A program made the position numbers and the translations under genes. Below the pieces are notes generated by a model. It made no database searches. It was not told the origin of the DNA and saw only the letters and a program-made list of their open reading frames with translations. Below are positions 39,872-57,605 of a stretch of 64,000 nt of DNA, in pieces (the stretch's first letter is position 1; every line of letters starts with the position of its first letter). The DNA is taken from positions 1-64,000 of the IMG/VR virus record IMGVR_UViG_3300043419_002186. The stretch is one strand, 5' to 3'. The stretch is from a virus.

Positions 39872-39941
39872 CTGTCACTCCGTGCCCCGTGGGGCCTTGC
39901 AGGTCCCTCCCCCGCAGGGGAGGGCTCTGTGAATCGATTCG

Positions 39942-40934: not shown

Positions 40935-40978
40935 GTTGCGTCCTTTCCGCCCCGTGGGGCCTTGACGAATCGATTCGT

Positions 40979-41560: not shown

Positions 41561-41713
41561 GACTCTGCCCTTCCTGCCCCGTAGGGCTTGGCCGCTCAGG
41601 GCCCTGTTGGTGAATCGATTCGGGAGTCTTTCCCTCCTGCCGAAGGGCAGCGCGGTGAGTGCGCGCTACCCCTCCGCGGGAGGGGGCGAGACCGAAGCCC
41701 CGCCCCACCCGTC

Positions 41714-42684: not shown

Positions 42685-44232
42685 TCACTGCCCGTCGTCG
42701 AAGGCCTCGACCACGTCCCTCGCCCACGCGGGCGTCGGGGAGGACGACTTGCGGACGAGGACGACGACGACCTCGCCAGCACCCTGCGGCTTCGTCGCGG
42801 GCCACCCCGTGTCGCCGTCGGTGAGGACGAACGTCAAGTGAGGCTTCACCTTCGCGACCTGCGCCACGCCAGCGCCCATGTCGGTGCCGCCGCCGCCGAC
42901 AAGCTGGTCTCGGATGTGCCCGACGACCTGCGACCCGTCCTTCAGCTTGACCGGCGTCGTCGGCCTCACGTCGCACGCGACCATGTAGGCCTCTTCGACG
43001 CCCCCCGCCTTGAGGATGCCGACGACCTCGCAGATGGAGTCGGTGATGCTCTTCGAGCCCATGGACCCCGACGTGTCGAAGACGAGGCCCACGCGCACCT
43101 TCGGCTTGAAGAGCGAGGGGAGCACCATGCCGAAGTGCGCTCCCACGCGGCTCGGCTTCGTCATCGTGAAGTCGGTCGCGCCCTTCGCGATGCCGATGCC
43201 GCGGCGGGTGATACTCGCGAGGCGGGCTCGCCAGTCCACCTTTGGCGGCTTGAGCACCTCTTCGGCCCACTGCTTGAGGCCCGCGGGCATGTCGCCTCGC
43301 CCCTGCTCCGCGTGCTTCTTGACCGCCTCCGCGGTCTGCTTTCGAATCGATTCGACCTCGTCGGGCGTGTAGCCGTTCGGCAGCGACTGCCCCGACGCCT
43401 TCGCGTCGTCGGCCAGCTTGTCGGTGTGCTCGGTGTCACCCGCGCAGCCGCCGCAGGAACGCTGCCCCGCGGGCTTCGGGGGCACGGGGACCGGCTTCGA
43501 GCCGCCGCCCTGCCCGCTCTGCGGGGACTGCGCGCCGCCCTCGCCCTCGCCGTCGCCCTCGCCATCCTGCGGGTCGCCCTCGCCCTTCTCGCCCTGCCCG
43601 CTCTGCGGCTTGCTCTGCTGCTGCCCCTGCTGCGGCTTGCCCTGTCCACCCTGCTGCGGCTGCTGCGGAGGCGGCGGCTGCTGGGCCAGCTTCGCGATGA
43701 CGGCGCGGTAGAGCGCGACGATGGACACCGTCTCCGCATTGCCGTCAATCGGGTCCACGTCAGCGTGCGTGAGCCCGTAGCGCTTGAGCACACTCTCGAC
43801 GGTGACGAAGCCGCAGGTCTCGAAGTCGGCCTTCGTCTTGACGACGTGACCGAAGGGGCGCAGACGGCCGCCGCTCGCGATGATGACTTCGCGGAGGACG
43901 ACGTTGCCGATGGCGTCGCCCAGTTCGTTCCACAGGCGACGGTGCTCGTCGGGGATGCACTGCGTGCGAGCCATGCCGAAGTGGTCGGGCATGAGGTGGA
44001 CGAGAATCTCATGCGCAATGTCCGCGGCCAGTTCCTCGGGCGCGATGGCCAGCGTGCGTGCCTCGTCGTGGAATATCTGCCGCTTCTCGTTCGCGGAGAA
44101 GCTCTTGCCGTAGTTCGGGACGTGGACGTACTGCAGAGCCTGAAGTTCCGGCTCGACGTACGGCATCGACTTGCGGATAAGCTGCCTTGCGATGGCGAGT
44201 TGGTCGCCCACCGTCTTGCCCTTCATGGCCAT
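42685..44232 (-). CDS. VWA-domain protein with DUF2201-like metallopeptidase-type N-terminus
   Basis: 515 residues. An N-terminal helical domain includes IAHEILVHLMPDHFG (His74, Glu75, His79, His84). DUF2201 relatives usually show HExxH, so this HExxxH spacing may mean an inactive or shifted metal site. A Gln/Gly/Pro linker spans about 184-255 and a CGGC occurs at 260-263. The C-terminal VWA-type domain has MIDAS residues Asp386-Ser388-Ser390 (FDTSGSM), Thr450 and Asp472. It is paired with the MoxR ATPase just upstream, a known partnership in which the ATPase remodels a target held by the VWA protein. A palindrome (43344) is read as ESIR. Confidence 0.8.
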   Translation of the reverse strand: MAMKGKTVGDQLAIARQLIRKSMPYVEPELQALQYVHVPNYGKSFSANEKRQIFHDEARTLAIAPEELAADIAHEILVHLMPDHFGMARTQCIPDEHRRLWNELGDAIGNVVLREVIIASGGRLRPFGHVVKTKADFETCGFVTVESVLKRYGLTHADVDPIDGNAETVSIVALYRAVIAKLAQQPPPPQQPQQGGQGKPQQGQQQSKPQSGQGEKGEGDPQDGEGDGEGEGGAQSPQSGQGGGSKPVPVPPKPAGQRSCGGCAGDTEHTDKLADDAKASGQSLPNGYTPDEVESIRKQTAEAVKKHAEQGRGDMPAGLKQWAEEVLKPPKVDWRARLASITRRGIGIAKGATDFTMTKPSRVGAHFGMVLPSLFKPKVRVGLVFDTSGSMGSKSITDSICEVVGILKAGGVEEAYMVACDVRPTTPVKLKDGSQVVGHIRDQLVGGGGTDMGAGVAQVAKVKPHLTFVLTDGDTGWPATKPQGAGEVVVVLVRKSSSPTPAWARDVVEAFDDGQ

Positions 44233-44265
44233 GTCGGACCTCCCGCCCCTTGGGGCGCTACCGTT

Positions 44266-44340
44266 GCGTGGGCTTGGGACCACGCTTGCGGGTTACACCG
44301 CGGAGTGAATCGATTCGGATTCACCCCGCGGCCCCTCACC
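44266..44340 (-). promoter_or_regulatory. Structured intercistronic RNA element, copy 1
   Basis: Plus-strand order: stem I GCGTGG / CCACGC around loop GCTTGGGA, stem II GCGG / CCGC around GTTACA, stem III ATTCAC-type arms holding the palindrome, then CCCCTCAC. It lies between the MoxR and VWA genes. Stem bases differ from the other copies while pairing is kept. Confidence 0.65.
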
Positions 44341-44347
44341 GTTCGAC

Positions 44348-45457
44348 CTACGCGACCGTCTGAACCCCGAAGAGCTTCAGGTTCGCCGCCGCCTCGTTCT
44401 TCGTGCTGGCGCGGGGGTTGCCGCTCTTCGAGGAGCGCCACACCTGCAGCGGGCTCGAAGCGCTCGTCGCGAAGTCGCCCTGCCCGACGTTCGCCGCGGA
44501 GAGGATGACGCCCCACGCTGCATCGACGAGGAACTCCCGCTCCTTCGCGTTCGCGGCGAGCCCGTTCACGGCCTCGATGGCGCAGCCCGCGATGACGGGG
44601 TACACGTAGTCGGGGCGCGACGCGTCGGGCTTCCAGTCCACCGCGCCCGTGAGGACGTCGCGGGGCTTGGGCAGGTTCGCGCTCTTGACGTACTCACGGA
44701 ACGGACGCCCGTGGCCCTTGCCCACCGTGGCAGAGACCAGTTCGAGCCCCGACTCGGGGTCGCCGTCGCGCAGCGCAGCCGCGTAGAGGGCGCACGCGGC
44801 GTCCCACGCACGCGGGGACGGCCACGCGCCGCTGCGCTTGGACTCGTCCGCGGGGAATGCGAGCAGGGCCTTCTCCCCGAAGTGCGAGACGTAGCCGCCG
44901 ACAAGCTGCGCGGCTCGCTTGTCGAAGTCGTCGCCGTTGACGCGGTCGGTCATGAGCCACGTGGCCCACTCGGTCGGGCTCGGCACGTCGGCTTCGAGGT
45001 GGACGAGCCGGTTCGCCGCCGCGGGGGGCAGTTCGTTGCCCGCGGTCGTCATCTGCACGGGGTTCGCGGCGAGGACGATGCGCACGTCGGGGTGCAGGGG
45101 CACGTCGCCCACGACGCGTTCGAGGACGACGCGCAGCAGGGCGGACCACGTCGCGGGGCTCGCGAGCGTCGCCTCGTCAATAAACAGGGTGCCACCCTTC
45201 GAGAGCGCGGAGACCATGGTCGGCGCGAGCCGCTTGGTCTCGCCTTCCTGCGGGAAGGGGATGCCGCAGTAGTCGGTGGGGTCGGAGAGGGCGGGCATCG
45301 AGACCCACAGCGGGACACTGTCGGCCTTGGCGCCCCAGTAGCTGCGGTGCAGCGCCTTCATCATGGCGCTCTTGCCGATGCCGGGGGCACCGACGACGAA
45401 CGGGACACGGTTCGCCTTCATCGAGAGCAGCGCGAGCTTCATCCAGTGGGTGGCCAT
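44348..45457 (-). CDS. MoxR-type AAA+ ATPase
   Basis: 369 residues from ATG 45457. Walker A GAPGIGKS at 23-30, Walker B TLFIDEAT (Asp94, Glu95), sensor-1 AANP and a downstream arginine-finger region (AAANRLVHLE) place it in the MoxR group. These act with VWA-domain partners to open or insert cofactors and rearrange complexes. The VWA gene follows immediately, separated by a structured element. The hairpin leader is at 45473-45484. Confidence 0.85.
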   Translation of the reverse strand: MATHWMKLALLSMKANRVPFVVGAPGIGKSAMMKALHRSYWGAKADSVPLWVSMPALSDPTDYCGIPFPQEGETKRLAPTMVSALSKGGTLFIDEATLASPATWSALLRVVLERVVGDVPLHPDVRIVLAANPVQMTTAGNELPPAAANRLVHLEADVPSPTEWATWLMTDRVNGDDFDKRAAQLVGGYVSHFGEKALLAFPADESKRSGAWPSPRAWDAACALYAAALRDGDPESGLELVSATVGKGHGRPFREYVKSANLPKPRDVLTGAVDWKPDASRPDYVYPVIAGCAIEAVNGLAANAKEREFLVDAAWGVILSAANVGQGDFATSASSPLQVWRSSKSGNPRASTKNEAAANLKLFGVQTVA

Positions 45458-45513
45458 CGTCTCTACCTTCCCGCCCCGTAGGGCGCGCACCGTGCGGCAT
45501 GCACGGTGACCGT

Positions 45514-45581
45514 GACTGGACTTGGGACCAGTCGGTGCGGTTACGCCGCGGGGCGAATCGATTCACCCCGCGGTCCCTCAC
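45514..45581 (-). promoter_or_regulatory. Structured intercistronic RNA element, copy 2
   Basis: Stem I GACTGG / CCAGTC around loop ACTTGGGA; stem II GCGG / CCGC around TTACG; stem III CCGCGGGG / CCCCGCGG enclosing the palindrome 45555-45564; then TCCCTCAC. It lies upstream of the MoxR gene. Confidence 0.68.
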
Positions 45582-45588
45582 GCTTCTC

Positions 45589-46074
45589 TCACTCCCCCTG
45601 CTCGGGGTCGCCAAGCCCCGCCGCGAGCATGAGTTCGCGGACGACGACGGCGTAGCTGTTCTCCGAGTCCATCTGCCCCCACGCGTGCTGCAGCGACTCG
45701 GCCAGCATGCGCCAGTCTCGCCCCGTGAGCGTCACGCTGCGCGTCTGCGGCTGCGCGTCGAGGCGCCGCTGCTGCTCGGCGCGGGCCCTGTCCGCGGCCA
45801 CCTCGGCGTGCCGCTTGTAGTGCGCGAGAATGCGGGCGACGAGGCTCTCGGTCTCCTTTATCCCGTGACGCTCTTCCCGATGAAGCAGCGAGTCGAGGTG
45901 GTCGTCGAAGGCGACCGCGTCGCAGAAGAGCAGGGTGACCTTGTCTTCGAGTTCGTCTCGCGCAGCGTCATCGAGCTTCGCCGCGGCTCGGACCATGCGG
46001 CGGCCGATGAAGAGGGCACGGTTTATGATGCGGTCCTGCGTGTCGTTCGCGAGCGTGTGCTGCTGCGTGTCCAT
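45589..46074 (-). CDS. Hypothetical helical early protein
   Basis: 161 residues, almost entirely charged helix (LDDAARDELEDKVTLLFC; HAEVAADRARAEQQRRLDA). No membrane segment or motif. UUCG-type hairpin leader (46088-46099, GCCC-TTCG-GGGC) ahead of AGGAAGG. It lies in the ParB-MoxR-VWA operon and may be a small subunit of that system. Confidence 0.58.
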   Translation of the reverse strand: MDTQQHTLANDTQDRIINRALFIGRRMVRAAAKLDDAARDELEDKVTLLFCDAVAFDDHLDSLLHREERHGIKETESLVARILAHYKRHAEVAADRARAEQQRRLDAQPQTRSVTLTGRDWRMLAESLQHAWGQMDSENSYAVVVRELMLAAGLGDPEQGE

Positions 46075-46124
46075 GTGCTGCCTTCCTGCCCCGAAGGGCC
46101 ACCCGCCGACGCGGCGGGGACGAC

Positions 46125-46192
46125 GGACGGACTTGGGACCGTCCTGTGCGGTTACACCGCGGCGAACCGAATCGATTCACCACGGCCCCTCA
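46125..46192 (-). promoter_or_regulatory. Structured intercistronic RNA element, copy 3
   Basis: Stem I GGACGG / CCGTCC around loop ACTTGGGA; stem II GCGG / CCGC around TTACA; a weaker stem III (CCGCGG / CCACGG) holding the palindrome 46169-46178; then CCCCTCAC. Confidence 0.66.
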
Positions 46193-46199
46193 CGCTTGG

Positions 46200-46373
46200 T
46201 TATCGGTGCTGGCTCACGTACTCCGTCCACGCCGTGTCGAACCACTGGCGCTCTTCGGCCTGTCGGCGGGCACGCCGGATGCGGGCGCTGCGCGCTTCGT
46301 CGGCCCTCGCCCGCTTGTCGGCCTCACGGGAGGCGACGGTCTCGTACTGCGCGAACGTCCTGCAGCCCTTCAT
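46200..46373 (-). CDS. Small Arg-rich helical protein
   Basis: 57 residues, not in most gene calls because of size. ATG 46373 follows a hairpin (46387-46398) and AGAGAGG. The sequence is one charged helix (ADKRARADEARSARIRRARR) with a Trp-rich end (WFDTAWTEYVSQHR). Its regular leader, shared with neighbours, supports reality. Function unknown. Confidence 0.55.
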   Translation of the reverse strand: MKGCRTFAQYETVASREADKRARADEARSARIRRARRQAEERQWFDTAWTEYVSQHR

Positions 46374-46406
46374 GGCTTTCCTCTCTGCCCCTTGGGGCGG
46401 TGGTGG

Positions 46407-46637
46407 TTACGGGCCCCCGAAGTCCTCGCCTCGGGGTCCCCATGCGTCGTGACGGGCCGTGAATAGGTGCTGCTCAAAGGCCTCCAACAGGGCGCGCTGC
46501 GCGTCCGACAGGGGCTCGCCGCGCAGTGCCGCGGCGATGCCGTCGTGCAGGTCGCACGCCTCGCGCTCGTTGACGACAAGTTCGACTTCGATGCACGGGG
46601 CCGTGTCGGTGCACGTGAGCAGGGTCTCGGGCTTCAT
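46407..46637 (-). CDS. Hypothetical small protein
   Basis: 76 residues from ATG 46637, with the GCCC-TACG-GGGC hairpin (46651-46662) and AGAGAGG in front. Acidic and helical (CDLHDGIAAALRGEPLSDAQ). No family recognised. Confidence 0.55.
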   Translation of the reverse strand: MKPETLLTCTDTAPCIEVELVVNEREACDLHDGIAAALRGEPLSDAQRALLEAFEQHLFTARHDAWGPRGEDFGGP

Positions 46638-46666
46638 GGCTTGCCTCTCTGCCCCGTAGGGCGTGC

Positions 46667-46730
46667 GCACGGGCTTGGGACCGTGCATGCGGGTTACACC
46701 CCCACCCGTGCTGGCATGGGGGCCCCTCAC
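46667..46730 (-). promoter_or_regulatory. Structured intercistronic RNA element, copy 4
   Basis: Stem I GCACGG / CCGTGC around loop GCTTGGGA; stem II GGG / CCC around TTACA; stem III CCCCCA / TGGGGG with no palindrome in its loop; then CCCCTCAC. It lies between the ParB-like gene and the next small gene, showing the element does not need the palindrome. Confidence 0.66.
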
Positions 46731-46738
46731 CTTTCGAG

Positions 46739-47836
46739 CTAGGCGGCGGCGCTGTCCGCGGGGGCCGCGGCGAGGCCTTCGAGCGCGGCCTTGCCGAAGA
46801 GCGCCTCGAACGCCGCCTTCGTCGGGAAGGCGCCCGCGGGGGCCGCAAGGTCCTCACCCAGCACCCAGCGCATGGCGAACATGACGCCCTGCGCAAAGCC
46901 CGCGCTCTTCGCGTCCTCGGGCTTGGGGAAGGCCAGCGTCTGCGTGCGCGCCTTCGTGAGCATGGCGCGCAGGTCGGCCTCCGCGGGGCGCCCCTTCGCC
47001 GCCTTGCGGGGCGCAACCGTCGGGGCCTTGCCCGCCTCGGCCTCGGCCTCGGCGCGGATGGTCTTCAGCGCCTCGGTCGAGACCTTGACCTTCGTCTCGC
47101 CGGTCTCGGTCTTCACGACGCGGGCGTCGGCCTTGCGGGAGCCCGTCTTCGAGGACGTCTTCCCCGAAGGCGAGGCCTTCGCCTCTGCGACGAGCGCTTC
47201 GACCTTGGCCGCGATGACGGGCTGCACTTCGGGGGCGGCGCGGGCCGCGATCTGCGCGGGGGCCATGTCGAGCGTGCCGTCGGTGACGAGGGCCTTCACC
47301 TCGGCCGTGGCCGACTTGTCGATGCCGAAGATGGAGACGACGGTGTCCTGCGGCTTGCCGAAGGCCTCCGCAATGTCGGGCAGCGTCATGCCAGCGGCGA
47401 GCATGCGCTTAGCGTTCGCCGTCTGCGCGGCGAGGTCGTCGTCGATACGGTGCGCGTTCGCCTTGACCTGCAGACGCAGCGCTTCGAGGCCCGTGGCCTT
47501 CGAGACGATGCAGGGGGCGAGGACGAGGCCCGCGGCGAGAGCGGCGCGCATGCGCTGCTTGCCGTTGATCACCTTGTAGCTCTTCGAGCCGTCGGCGCTC
47601 GGCGTCTCGGAGACGAGGAGCGACTGCAGGATGCCGTCGCGGCCGACGGACGTGACGAGGAACGGCGCGACAGGGGCTTCGATGCGCGGGTCGTAGTCCA
47701 CCGCGGCGGTGTCGGTCTCGAACCACAGCTTCGAGAGCGGGAGCATGACGACCTCGCCGCTGGCGAGGCTCTCGACGGGGACTGCGGGCGACTGCGTGAC
47801 GGTCTCGGTGCTCTTCGTGCTCTTCTTCGTGGCCAT
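46739..47836 (-). CDS. ParB-like DNA-binding protein
   Basis: 365 residues from ATG 47836. An N-terminal ParB/Srx-type domain (KVINGKQRMRAALAAGL carries the GxxRxxA motif) is followed by a helix-turn-helix (MTLPDIAEAFGKPQDTVVSIF), then a Lys/Ala/Thr linker and a C-terminal helical domain. ParB proteins bind palindromic parS sites and spread on DNA; phage relatives can also act as nucleases or regulators. No ParA is visible. The gene lies just downstream of an 18-bp palindrome (47873-47890) and a large inverted repeat, candidates for its targets. Confidence 0.75.
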   Translation of the reverse strand: MATKKSTKSTETVTQSPAVPVESLASGEVVMLPLSKLWFETDTAAVDYDPRIEAPVAPFLVTSVGRDGILQSLLVSETPSADGSKSYKVINGKQRMRAALAAGLVLAPCIVSKATGLEALRLQVKANAHRIDDDLAAQTANAKRMLAAGMTLPDIAEAFGKPQDTVVSIFGIDKSATAEVKALVTDGTLDMAPAQIAARAAPEVQPVIAAKVEALVAEAKASPSGKTSSKTGSRKADARVVKTETGETKVKVSTEALKTIRAEAEAEAGKAPTVAPRKAAKGRPAEADLRAMLTKARTQTLAFPKPEDAKSAGFAQGVMFAMRWVLGEDLAAPAGAFPTKAAFEALFGKAALEGLAAAPADSAAA

Positions 47837-47913
47837 GTGGCCCTGCGCTTTCTGCCCCGTGGGGCGGTGTGTGGCCGAATCGATTCGGCCGGTGTGTGTT
47901 GCCCGCTGTCGGG

Positions 47914-54653: not shown

Positions 54654-54981
54654 TTTCGAATCCTTCTGCTCGAACGCATGCAGGGCACGCGTCGAGCGTG
54701 TGTCTGTGGTTTCGCATCTGGAGCTGCCCAAACGTGAACGGTTCGAGAGCTGCGATGATCTTCCATCCGTCCGCGTATCCGTCCCCGTCTTGAAGCAGCC
54801 CGTTATCGCCCATTTCAACCTTGCGGCTCTCGCAGTAGTCGCAGGTGACAACCGTCGCGACGAAGCCTTTTCCTGCCGGGTAGCGCTTCTCATCCGTCAC
54901 CCGCTCCACTCTCCCCATGCCGTCGGAACCCGGAATGACGTTGAGCTTGATGGGGGCGTGCATTTGGTAGGCGCGACTCAT
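54646..54981 (-). CDS. Zinc-ribbon paralogue 5
   Basis: 111 residues from ATG 54981. CDYC, ADGWKIIAALE and CPACVRAE near the C-terminus. Its start overlaps the stop of the DNA polymerase gene, so the whole array may be co-transcribed with the polymerase. Confidence 0.6.
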   Translation of the reverse strand: MSRAYQMHAPIKLNVIPGSDGMGRVERVTDEKRYPAGKGFVATVVTCDYCESRKVEMGDNGLLQDGDGYADGWKIIAALEPFTFGQLQMRNHRHTLDACPACVRAEGFEND

Positions 54982-57605
54982 CACACGTCTGCCCACGTCT
55001 TTCCTGTCTTGGGCTTGGCGGCGAACTCGACGCCGTCGAGTCCCCACACCGCACGGTTCATGTGCTTCTTGAGCATCTTCTCGACCCACTCGGCTTCGCT
55101 CTCGGGGCACTCCACGTAGAGCGCGTCGTGCACCTGCGAGATGAGGCCCGTGTTCGGTCCCCACTTGCCGAAGGGAATGTCCTGCAGGAGGTCGAAGGTG
55201 CTCTCATGGATGATGTGCGCACCCGCACTTTGAATGGGGTGGTTCACGATTTCATTGAACGCCTCGCCATCGAGGAAGTCGCGCTGACGGCCCCACACGG
55301 GGTCTCGCACGTAGCCCTTCTCTCGGAAGCCCTCGACGGTCTTGTCCCACCACTTCGGAAGCTCGGGGATTCCCTTGAGCCAGTTGCGCTTGAGCGTCGC
55401 GACCTCGCGCAGCGTCAGGTCCGGGTACATCAGGTTCCCGTTCTCGTCCTCTGCCGATGTGACGAGGTTGTGCACCGTCTCGTCGCCTGAGCCGTAGAAC
55501 GAGGCGTACTTGATGCCCTTCGCAATCTTGCGCAGCTTGTCCCACATGTCACTCTTCGGCTGCAGCGCATCGAACTTCGCGCCAAACATCAGCGAAGCCG
55601 TCATCGCGTGCGGGTCCTTCTTCGCAGCGAACGCTTCGAGGTAGATGCGAATCTGCGCGATGGCAGTGATGATGCGAAGCTCAAGCTGGTCAGCGTCCGC
55701 TCCGACGATGACGTTCCCCGGCGCAGGGATGATGAGCTTGCGCAGGTGCTTGGGCCAGTTCTGCGCGTTCGGATTCGAGCTGCTCAGGCGACCTGACGTG
55801 GTGCCATGCGCGTTGTAGTCGGGGCGCACACGGCCATCGAGCGAGATGAGCCCCCGCTGCGCCTCCTCCTGCTCATCCTCGCTCGCGAACTGGAAGCCGT
55901 CGAGAGGAGAGTTGTAGGGGATGAGGCGGCGAACGTAGGTGCCGTATTCCTTCGCCACGCGGCGGTAGCGGCGCAGCGTGTCGAGGAACGCGACGACCTG
56001 CTCCTTGTTCTGAACGGACGGGTCATCCTTCACGCCCGCGCGCATGAGACGAACGCACTCGTCGTTGGTCGAGGGGTCGCCCAGCTTTGTGTAGTCCGCG
56101 GGAGGGAGAGACCACTCCTCGAAGAGCAGGTCCCGAAGCTGAGGGACGCTGTTCATGTTGATTTCGCGTCCGAGAATCGATTCGGCGTGCTTGCGGAAGT
56201 GCGCAATCTTCGTGAGCAGCTCCTTCGCAGCCACATCGCGAGCGGCGCGGTCAACGAGGAGCCCGTTCTCATGGAGGCCAACGCAGACCTCCTGCACCTT
56301 GTGGTCCTTCTTGACGACGCTCTCCTGCTGACGCTCGACCACGGCGCGCGAGAGCTGGGGAACCACGCGAGCGGTGACGACGCAGTCCACCGCGTTGTAG
56401 TGCTGCAGCTCCTTGTCCGTGCTCGCCTCCGTGGCCGTGTGCGCGTCCTTCCAAGCGACCACGTCCGTGTAGATGGAGCCGACGTATCCGAGCTTGTGCG
56501 GCAGCTCAGGCTCGACGCAGCGGTGCAGGAGGATGGTGTCGATGAGCGGCTTCGGGTCCACGCCGAAGTGCTGCTTGATGACCATGCGGTCGAAGTAGCC
56601 CGCGTTGTGGCCAATCTTGAGCTTGTTCGGGTCCGAGAAGAAGTCGCGCAGGATGGAGCGCATCTCCTCCACCTGACCGCTGGTGTACTGCGGAGGAGGA
56701 ATGAGCGCGCCGCCGGGGCCCTCGATGGAGAGGAAGGGGACGACGATGGCGCCGTACTCATGCCCGATGCCCACGGTCTTGAGCTTCGCGACCATCGGGT
56801 CATCGACGGTGGTCTCGACGTCGAACGTGTAGTCGATGTCGGTGCGAGCGACGAAGGCGCGCAGCTCGTCGGGCGTGGGAAGCAGCTTGATTTGTGGCTC
56901 TCGCCAGCCGAGGCCGACGGTGAACCATCGGTAGGCGCGCGAGAGGTCCGAGCGGAAGGCGCGTGACCAGCGACGCGTGCGCATCACGAAGGCAGGATGC
57001 AGCGTCGGGAGCACACGAATGGCGAATCGATTCGGGTCCTCCGTCTCCGAGAGGAAGTCGTTCGCGTCGTTGAGGAAGGCCTCCACGGGACCACCGCGGA
57101 TGTCCATGATGGAGCGCTGCTTGCGCGTCAGGGCCGTGTAGGGGACCTTGCCCAGCGTGATGATGCGCTGCATCCCCATCAGCTCGTTCATCAGGCGGGG
57201 TCGGCAGCACTCGATGGGAGAGGGCAGGAGGGCTTCGCCCTTTTTGGCGAGCTTCTTGTTCGCCCGCTGCCACTTGAGCATGACCTTGTCGAGGTCGTTC
57301 TCGGGAGCGCGGCAAGCGACGGCGTGGTGCAGGTTCATCGACTGACGACGGATGCCGAGCGCCTTGAGAGCGTTCGTGAACTCCATGCCACCAGCGCCGG
57401 TCAGGGGACGCCCCGTCTCGCACTCCTTCTCAGCGGGCGCCTCAGCGATAACGGCAATCTCCGCATCCTCGCGAAGTTCGGGTCCCACGGGACCACCTTC
57501 TCGCGAGGTGCGGAGAGTGCATTGCGCGCAGTTGGCACCGAGCTTCTCGGGGTCGTAGGTCCCCTCGTTGTACATCTGAAACAGCAGCGCTCGCGTGCCG
57601 TTCAT
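54981..57605 (-). CDS. polA: DNA polymerase I fused to an N-terminal uracil-DNA glycosylase-like domain
   Basis: 874 residues. Residues 1-220 resemble family-4 uracil-DNA glycosylases. Evidence: Cys26/29 with Cys98 and Cys133 or 134 for a likely iron-sulfur cluster, EAPAEKECETGRPLTGAGG, HHAVACRAPEN and TLHPAFVMR. A 3'-5' exonuclease follows (Asp262/Glu264, Asn334-Phe338-Asp339, Tyr403/Asp407). The family-A polymerase has motif A Asp637, motif B Arg692-Lys696-Tyr700-Tyr704 and motif C His826-Asp827. Tyr700 sits at the position of E. coli Phe762, and motif C reads HDA instead of HDE. A similar fusion is known from phage SPO1. Probably the replicative polymerase. Confidence 0.93.
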   Translation of the reverse strand: MNGTRALLFQMYNEGTYDPEKLGANCAQCTLRTSREGGPVGPELREDAEIAVIAEAPAEKECETGRPLTGAGGMEFTNALKALGIRRQSMNLHHAVACRAPENDLDKVMLKWQRANKKLAKKGEALLPSPIECCRPRLMNELMGMQRIITLGKVPYTALTRKQRSIMDIRGGPVEAFLNDANDFLSETEDPNRFAIRVLPTLHPAFVMRTRRWSRAFRSDLSRAYRWFTVGLGWREPQIKLLPTPDELRAFVARTDIDYTFDVETTVDDPMVAKLKTVGIGHEYGAIVVPFLSIEGPGGALIPPPQYTSGQVEEMRSILRDFFSDPNKLKIGHNAGYFDRMVIKQHFGVDPKPLIDTILLHRCVEPELPHKLGYVGSIYTDVVAWKDAHTATEASTDKELQHYNAVDCVVTARVVPQLSRAVVERQQESVVKKDHKVQEVCVGLHENGLLVDRAARDVAAKELLTKIAHFRKHAESILGREINMNSVPQLRDLLFEEWSLPPADYTKLGDPSTNDECVRLMRAGVKDDPSVQNKEQVVAFLDTLRRYRRVAKEYGTYVRRLIPYNSPLDGFQFASEDEQEEAQRGLISLDGRVRPDYNAHGTTSGRLSSSNPNAQNWPKHLRKLIIPAPGNVIVGADADQLELRIITAIAQIRIYLEAFAAKKDPHAMTASLMFGAKFDALQPKSDMWDKLRKIAKGIKYASFYGSGDETVHNLVTSAEDENGNLMYPDLTLREVATLKRNWLKGIPELPKWWDKTVEGFREKGYVRDPVWGRQRDFLDGEAFNEIVNHPIQSAGAHIIHESTFDLLQDIPFGKWGPNTGLISQVHDALYVECPESEAEWVEKMLKKHMNRAVWGLDGVEFAAKPKTGKTWADV

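Follow-up and report, generated by a model that had tools for sequence, protein, structure and literature searches.

Type-P5 twister ribozymes as candidate intercistronic processing sites in the ParB-MoxR-VWA operon of an uncultured phage

Clustered hammerhead ribozymes of prophages were proposed in 2011 to divide long phage transcripts into mRNAs of gene length (Perreault et al., PMC3088659), and tandem prophage hammerhead arrays cleave in vitro and, for one of them, in vivo (PMC3088659). The HDV-like theta ribozymes of gut phages mature tRNA 3' ends (PMC10879173). In bacteria, both twister and hammerhead ribozymes show enrichment in the vicinity of Mu-like phage genes and of each other without a known reason, and the role of both classes in bacteria and phages has likewise been called unknown (PMC10085705). 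Rfam family RF02684 represents a circularly permuted form of twister, which Roth et al. 2014 named type P5 and which a review covers (PMC5408937). Sequence comparison assigns four intergenic RNAs in an operon of an uncultured phage to this family of self-cleaving ribozymes. We propose that they are intercistronic processing sites of the operon, a reading to which we give a probability of about three in four, with both cleavage and its benefit inferred from sequence.

The arrangement resembles the prophage hammerhead clusters in that serial self-cleaving ribozymes flank single genes or small gene blocks, and differs from them in the ribozyme class, in the number of copies (up to 20 per record), in the tight placement at stop codons, and in its occurrence in uncultured viruses instead of annotated prophages (PMC3088659). 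With the theta ribozymes it shares the use of a small, phage-encoded self-cleaving ribozyme for RNA processing, but theta ribozymes act on tRNAs whereas the elements described here sit between protein genes (PMC10879173). The ribozyme family is known, as is the intercistronic arrangement for hammerheads, and the present elements add new members. No description of large phage arrays of twister-P5 ribozymes set at stop codons was found in the searchable literature, a weak negative as most subscription papers fell outside its scope.

The window is the stretch of 64,000 nucleotides that was analysed, positions 1 to 64,000 of IMG/VR record IMGVR_UViG_3300043419_002186; the whole record of this phage (G000; 85,791 bp) comprises the window and the stretches L005 and L006. 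Read along the minus strand, the operon begins with a ParB-like gene (46739..47836; PHROG 4715, E 1.5e-16; Pfam ParB_N), whose start at 47836 was inferred from a block of hairpin, Shine-Dalgarno (SD) sequence and ATG. It continues with twister-P5 copy 4 (46669..46731), a 76-aa ORF (46407..46637), a 57-aa ORF (46200..46373), copy 3 (46127..46194), a 161-aa ORF (45589..46074), copy 2 (45516..45582), a gene for a MoxR-type AAA ATPase (44348..45457; PHROG 1297, E 1.5e-38; Pfam AAA_5) and copy 1 (44268..44340), and reaches the gene for a VWA-domain protein (DUF2201; 42685..44232; Pfam PF09967, E 1.7e-12; PHROG 1314). The 76-aa and 161-aa ORFs had no family match in PHROG or Pfam. Ribozymes therefore occupy, on the sense strand, four of the five gaps between the ParB and VWA genes, and each forms part of a module with a fixed order: stop codon, short linker, twister, GCCC-YNMG-GGGC hairpin, purine-rich SD and ATG. 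The stop codons lie a few nucleotides upstream of the ribozyme core. The remaining gap (46374-46406), between the 76-aa and 57-aa ORFs, lacks a ribozyme, with model matches there never above 7.4 bits, and the 57-aa ORF is preceded by a hairpin; processing of the operon would therefore not be strictly gene by gene.

A scan with Rfam matched copy 4 to RF02684 at 38.9 bits, above the gathering score of 37.6. With a permissive threshold, copies 1, 2 and 3 scored 36.2, 28.7 and 27.7 bits, which is under the gathering score, and they ranked by E-value as the next three matches in the region. Rfam's default threshold thus reports one of the four copies, and the candidate for a new RNA class is a known ribozyme. 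When the Rfam Twister-P5 model was run on the 85,791-bp record, it returned the four copies, all on the minus strand, with E-values of 4.6e-8 to 3.3e-5, and no fifth match. Model positions 1-58 were aligned in every copy, in the type-P5 permutation with P1 closed by a loop. The initial annotation of this DNA, which knew no matching class, was wrong on that point, since RF02684 matches all four elements. Its proposal that the RNA is folded and most probably belongs to the minus-strand mRNA is supported by Rfam matches that lie on the minus strand and in intergenic gaps. Among the functions it had offered, a processing site gained support, and neither a riboswitch nor a protein operator is needed in the explanation. 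No riboswitch family appeared among the Rfam scan matches, the conserved letters of the elements are those of the twister, and no terminator or switch-like alternative fold was noticed in single-sequence folds. The folding-energy z-scores, calculated from folds that leave out pseudoknots, were -3.4 to -4.1 for three copies and -0.5 for copy 4.

The elements had first been noticed through an RCTTGGGA loop inside a 6-bp stem that varies with compensation. The loops were recovered at 44272-44279, 45520-45527, 46131-46138 and 46673-46680, and the flanks differ among the copies yet pair in each of them. The window contains nine occurrences of the octamer (3.2 expected), among them the four element loops, which read UCCCAAG(C/U) on the minus strand. 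The TTACA/TTACG stretch described earlier is the complement of an invariant UGUAA/CGUAA, CCCCTCAC/TCCCTCAC is the complement of GUGAGGGG/GUGAGGGA, and what had been called a third stem is twister stem P1. In common with RF02684, the elements have the order P2 3' strand, P1 hairpin, UAA, P2 5' strand and P4, the core GAGGG, UAA and UCCCAAG, the pseudoknot T2 and termini open at P5. The three core motifs are intact in all four copies and invariant in an alignment (A1) of 33 sequences, made up of the four window copies and 29 from other viruses.

The stems of the window copies carry mutual compensatory changes in P4, P1 and P2; one P2 pair, for example, is G-C in the copies at 44268 and 46669 and C-G in those at 45516 and 46127, a compensating change within one genome. 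Across A1, 94.9% of pair cells held standard pairs, compared with 67.3% in shuffled alignments and at most 51.2% once partners were slid by one to three columns, and double changes numbered 150 against 39.7 after shuffling. P1, P2 and P4 each contain pairs altered on both sides, except that the uppermost P2 position is U.C in the window copies. Pseudoknot T2, between L2 and L4, covaries as well (column 62-80: 19 G-C, 11 A-U, 1 G-U and 2 other), and in copies 45516 and 46127 a reading by eye places its letters one position off (AC/GU). Pseudoknot T1, between GAGGG and UCCC, is complementary in every A1 sequence with zero variation. Covariation in homologues, on which the initial annotation had staked its folded RNA, is present in P1, P2, P4 and T2.

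The window copies depart from RF02684 in three respects. In all four, the topmost position of P2 is the U.C mismatch and UAA is preceded by an extra G, and three of them (44268, 45516 and 46127) have a long P1 ending in GAATCGATTC. The mismatch was seen elsewhere in one copy each of two other array records (G002 and G016) only, and the pair is A-U in 63 of 97 scored copies. These three features lower the Rfam scores of the window copies, and the mismatch and the extra G could also reduce their predicted activity.

Because a covariance model that includes the window copies (R1) gives circular E-values on the window, a second model (R2) was built from 29 ribozymes of pattern-found and linked IMG/VR records, with zero window sequences. 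R2 recovered copy 4 (46669-46731) at 50.1 bits (E 3.4e-11), copy 1 (44268-44340) at 43.4 bits (E 1.8e-9), copy 3 (46127-46194) at 35.3 bits (E 2.3e-7) and copy 2 (45516-45582) at 33.6 bits (E 6.4e-7). The covariance-model check proposed at the outset was thereby answered from other viruses, with E-values between 3e-11 and 6e-7. On the 85.8-kb record the best match of R2 beyond the four copies had E=4. The elements might instead be protein operators, or hairpins acting in transcription or translation, that only resemble twister, and three of them do bear the palindrome GAATCGATTC, which is like a protein site, in P1. An E-value down to 3e-11 from an independent model, the conserved active-site letters and the covariation of T2 across the family argue against such a resemblance, which we regard as extremely improbable.

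The palindrome itself is a feature of the whole genome. GAATCGATTC occurs 59 times in the record (for example at 647, 2175, 44307, 45555, 46169 and 47877) at a spacing of ~1.4 kb that is more even than chance, with one gap of <500 bp against about 18 in random placement. AATCGATT occurs 61 times and accounts for nearly every ATCGAT of the record. GAATCGATTC was absent from seven other array stretches that were checked. It looks like a genome-wide protein-binding site, either a stoperator-like one or one for the ParB-like protein that the phage itself encodes. Twister P1 serves as a seat for this palindrome in three copies, forming the apex of P1 in copies 2 and 3 and being carried in P1 of copy 1.

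A second small structure lies at the gene starts. A hairpin of the form GCCC-loop-GGGC, followed by a purine-rich SD and ATG, opens nine minus-strand genes of the operon, with loops of UACG, UUCG, CACG or CAAG (the YNMG class) and the ATG 12-17 nt downstream. Between each ribozyme and the following SD and ATG, the hairpins lie on the minus strand at 46651..46662 (copy 4; GCCC-UACG-GGGC), 46088..46099 (copy 3; GCCC-UUCG-GGGC), 45473..45484 (copy 2; GCCC-UACG-GGGC) and 44245..44256 (copy 1; GCCC-CAAG-GGGC), and those of copies 4, 2 and 1 were predicted in the folds. Further hairpins of the operon are found on the same strand at 39884-39895, 40949-40960, 41576-41587, 46387-46398 and 47854-47865. 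As the hairpin is also found before genes that lack a ribozyme, it is a feature separate from the twister, possibly a translation or RNA-stability element. A general test for hairpins ahead of gene starts across the record gave no clear enrichment.

The bond that twister ribozymes cleave joins U to A in UAA, and the products carry a 2',3'-cyclic phosphate and a 5'-OH. In the processing that we propose, the nascent minus-strand transcript would fold so that P2 and P4 form and the P1 hairpin closes, and the core would be locked by T1 (GG of GAGGG with CC of UCCC) and T2 (RC with GY). A single self-cut would then separate U from A in the invariant UAA, at the predicted positions U46696^A46695 in copy 4, U46154^A46153 in copy 3, U45543^A45542 in copy 2 and U44295^A44294 in copy 1, and the operon RNA would be cut in vivo at these four sites. 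In type P5 the cut falls between P1 and P2, which assigns P1 to the upstream RNA and P4 to the downstream one. Just past its stop codon, the upstream mRNA would terminate in the P1 hairpin and bear a 2',3'-cyclic phosphate. The downstream mRNA would carry a 5'-OH at its first nucleotide and then the P4 hairpin, followed in this phage by the GCCC-YNMG-GGGC hairpin, the SD and the ATG. The P5 permutation, in which each end made by the cut receives a hairpin, is well suited to mRNA processing. The polycistronic message would be converted into shorter mRNAs with a hairpin at each end; P1 and P4 would protect both new ends and uncouple the decay and translation of the genes, whose stability and dosage could then differ. 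This benefit, independent decay and translation for each gene, is less certain than the cleavage itself.

A DNA pattern for the twister core, applied to IMG/VR, returned 85 stretches, and 49 of the 50 virus records reached through it contained twister-P5 matches, a fraction that reflects selection by the pattern and is not a prevalence. The richest records held 20, 15, 14, 10, 9, 9, 8 and 8 copies, and in all 20 of the multi-copy array stretches every copy was on one strand. For 122 of 146 copies the best upstream ORF ended between -13 and +2 nt of the ribozyme, compared with 224 of 2222 (10%) at random places in the same sequences; the commonest stop was TAG (63 of 122), and a stop codon stood at exactly -2 relative to P2 in 40 of 147 copies. 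By a simple criterion, a single ORF filled 64 of the 127 intervals between neighbouring ribozymes, and the other intervals held two or more genes or were left unresolved. Within the single-ORF intervals the start codon lay at a median of 21.5 nt past the ribozyme and an SD-like motif was present in 51 of 64. In another twister-array virus (L128; G005:16000-29000), 13 kb contain 11 occurrences of overlapping 10-mers from GGAGTATTGACCAT, which look like a repeated gene-start or promoter block.

The frequent overlap of stop codons with the first ribozyme nucleotide, those at exactly -2 relative to P2, could suggest a regulated switch, in which cleavage is blocked by a terminating ribosome that covers P2 and GAGGG, or is gated by a small molecule or protein, so that splitting of the mRNA depends on translation of the upstream gene. 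The overlap is perhaps a mere consequence of genome compactness, however, the stops of the window lie a few nucleotides upstream of the core, and neither a ligand-type domain nor an alternative fold stood out in the single-sequence folds. We consider such regulation very unlikely.

The nearest relative of a copy lay in the same genome for 97 of 147 copies, compared with 9.4 expected, and the arrays therefore grow or homogenise within lineages. In diverged phages, orthologous genes frequently, though not invariably, retain a ribozyme on the corresponding side. Several orthologues at 40-60% identity do so, one pair at 74% has it on both sides, and positions turn over between related phages. Relatedness within genomes and this turnover are what would be expected of an intergenic repeat, selfish or neutral, that spreads by copying inside phage genomes and persists because cleavage between stop and start does little harm. 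Likeness within a genome may also arise from shared base composition or gene conversion, however, and same-side retention at 40-60% identity fits such copying poorly. The exact placement at stop codons, the strict sense orientation, the compensation in the stems and the fixed catalytic core point to selection for activity. We therefore regard selfish copying as unlikely to be the main explanation; it may have played a part in the history of the arrays, but would leave the stop-codon placement unexplained.

In 257 Gb of bacterial and archaeal genomes the core pattern returned 18 stretches, with above-cut-off twisters on three contigs only, and the arrangement is therefore mainly viral. One contig, from a Chthonomonadales MAG (L146/L151), has two twister-P5 ribozymes and a neighbouring type-II hammerhead, which share one strand (L146 2832-2893, L146 3303-3357 and L151 2161-2215), which is consistent with the two ribozyme classes being exchangeable.

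Ends of the twister type are compatible with the RNA ligase RtcB. Two cuts that flank a gene might accordingly free a gene-length RNA for RtcB or another ligase to close into a circular mRNA, and the expected 5'-OH and 2',3'-cyclic phosphate fit RtcB. One array record (G034) does encode RtcB (E 1e-118; G034:C1:50628-51827, minus strand, locus L143/L168) about 3 kb upstream of its array and on the same strand, where the enzyme could rejoin twister-cut ends. RtcB was present in only that one of 22 array records and not in G000, although many records are fragments and hosts may supply the enzyme, and Rnl2-type RNA ligase was present in none of the 22. For hammerhead arrays, Perreault et al. found no circular products (PMC3088659). 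Circularisation is in our judgement quite unlikely, and we retain the reading of the elements as intercistronic processing sites.

Close relatives of this phage were sought in several ways. No homologous contig was found in IMG/VR for the VWA protein or ParB, the MoxR protein of this operon had no match among 21 array records, and for the phage's DNA polymerase the closest phage records were distant, at about 25% identity. In the DNA polymerase A encoded at 54981-57605 of the window (minus strand), a uracil-DNA glycosylase-type domain occupies the N-terminal part of the same chain. A tight subfamily pattern returned two contigs, of which L007 was not a twister. A consensus twister query against cultured phages gave no clear member; a candidate in Acidovorax phage ACP17 reached 24 bits only, sits at the start of the dUTPase gene and was set aside.

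The arrays suggest, tentatively, a broader possibility: in a widespread group of uncultured phages, dense type-P5 arrays at gene boundaries may have replaced or supplemented RNase-based mRNA maturation, with cuts near many stop codons that give the mRNAs hairpins and 5'-OH and cyclic-phosphate ends able to resist the 5'-end-dependent decay of the host. If true, mRNA maturation by dense arrays would give phage twister ribozymes a clear biological role. With up to 20 copies in a fixed relation to stops and starts, the hypothesis of gene-by-gene mRNA processing by RNA alone becomes directly testable, and the operon described here offers a clean case in which the role of phage twister ribozymes can be tested.
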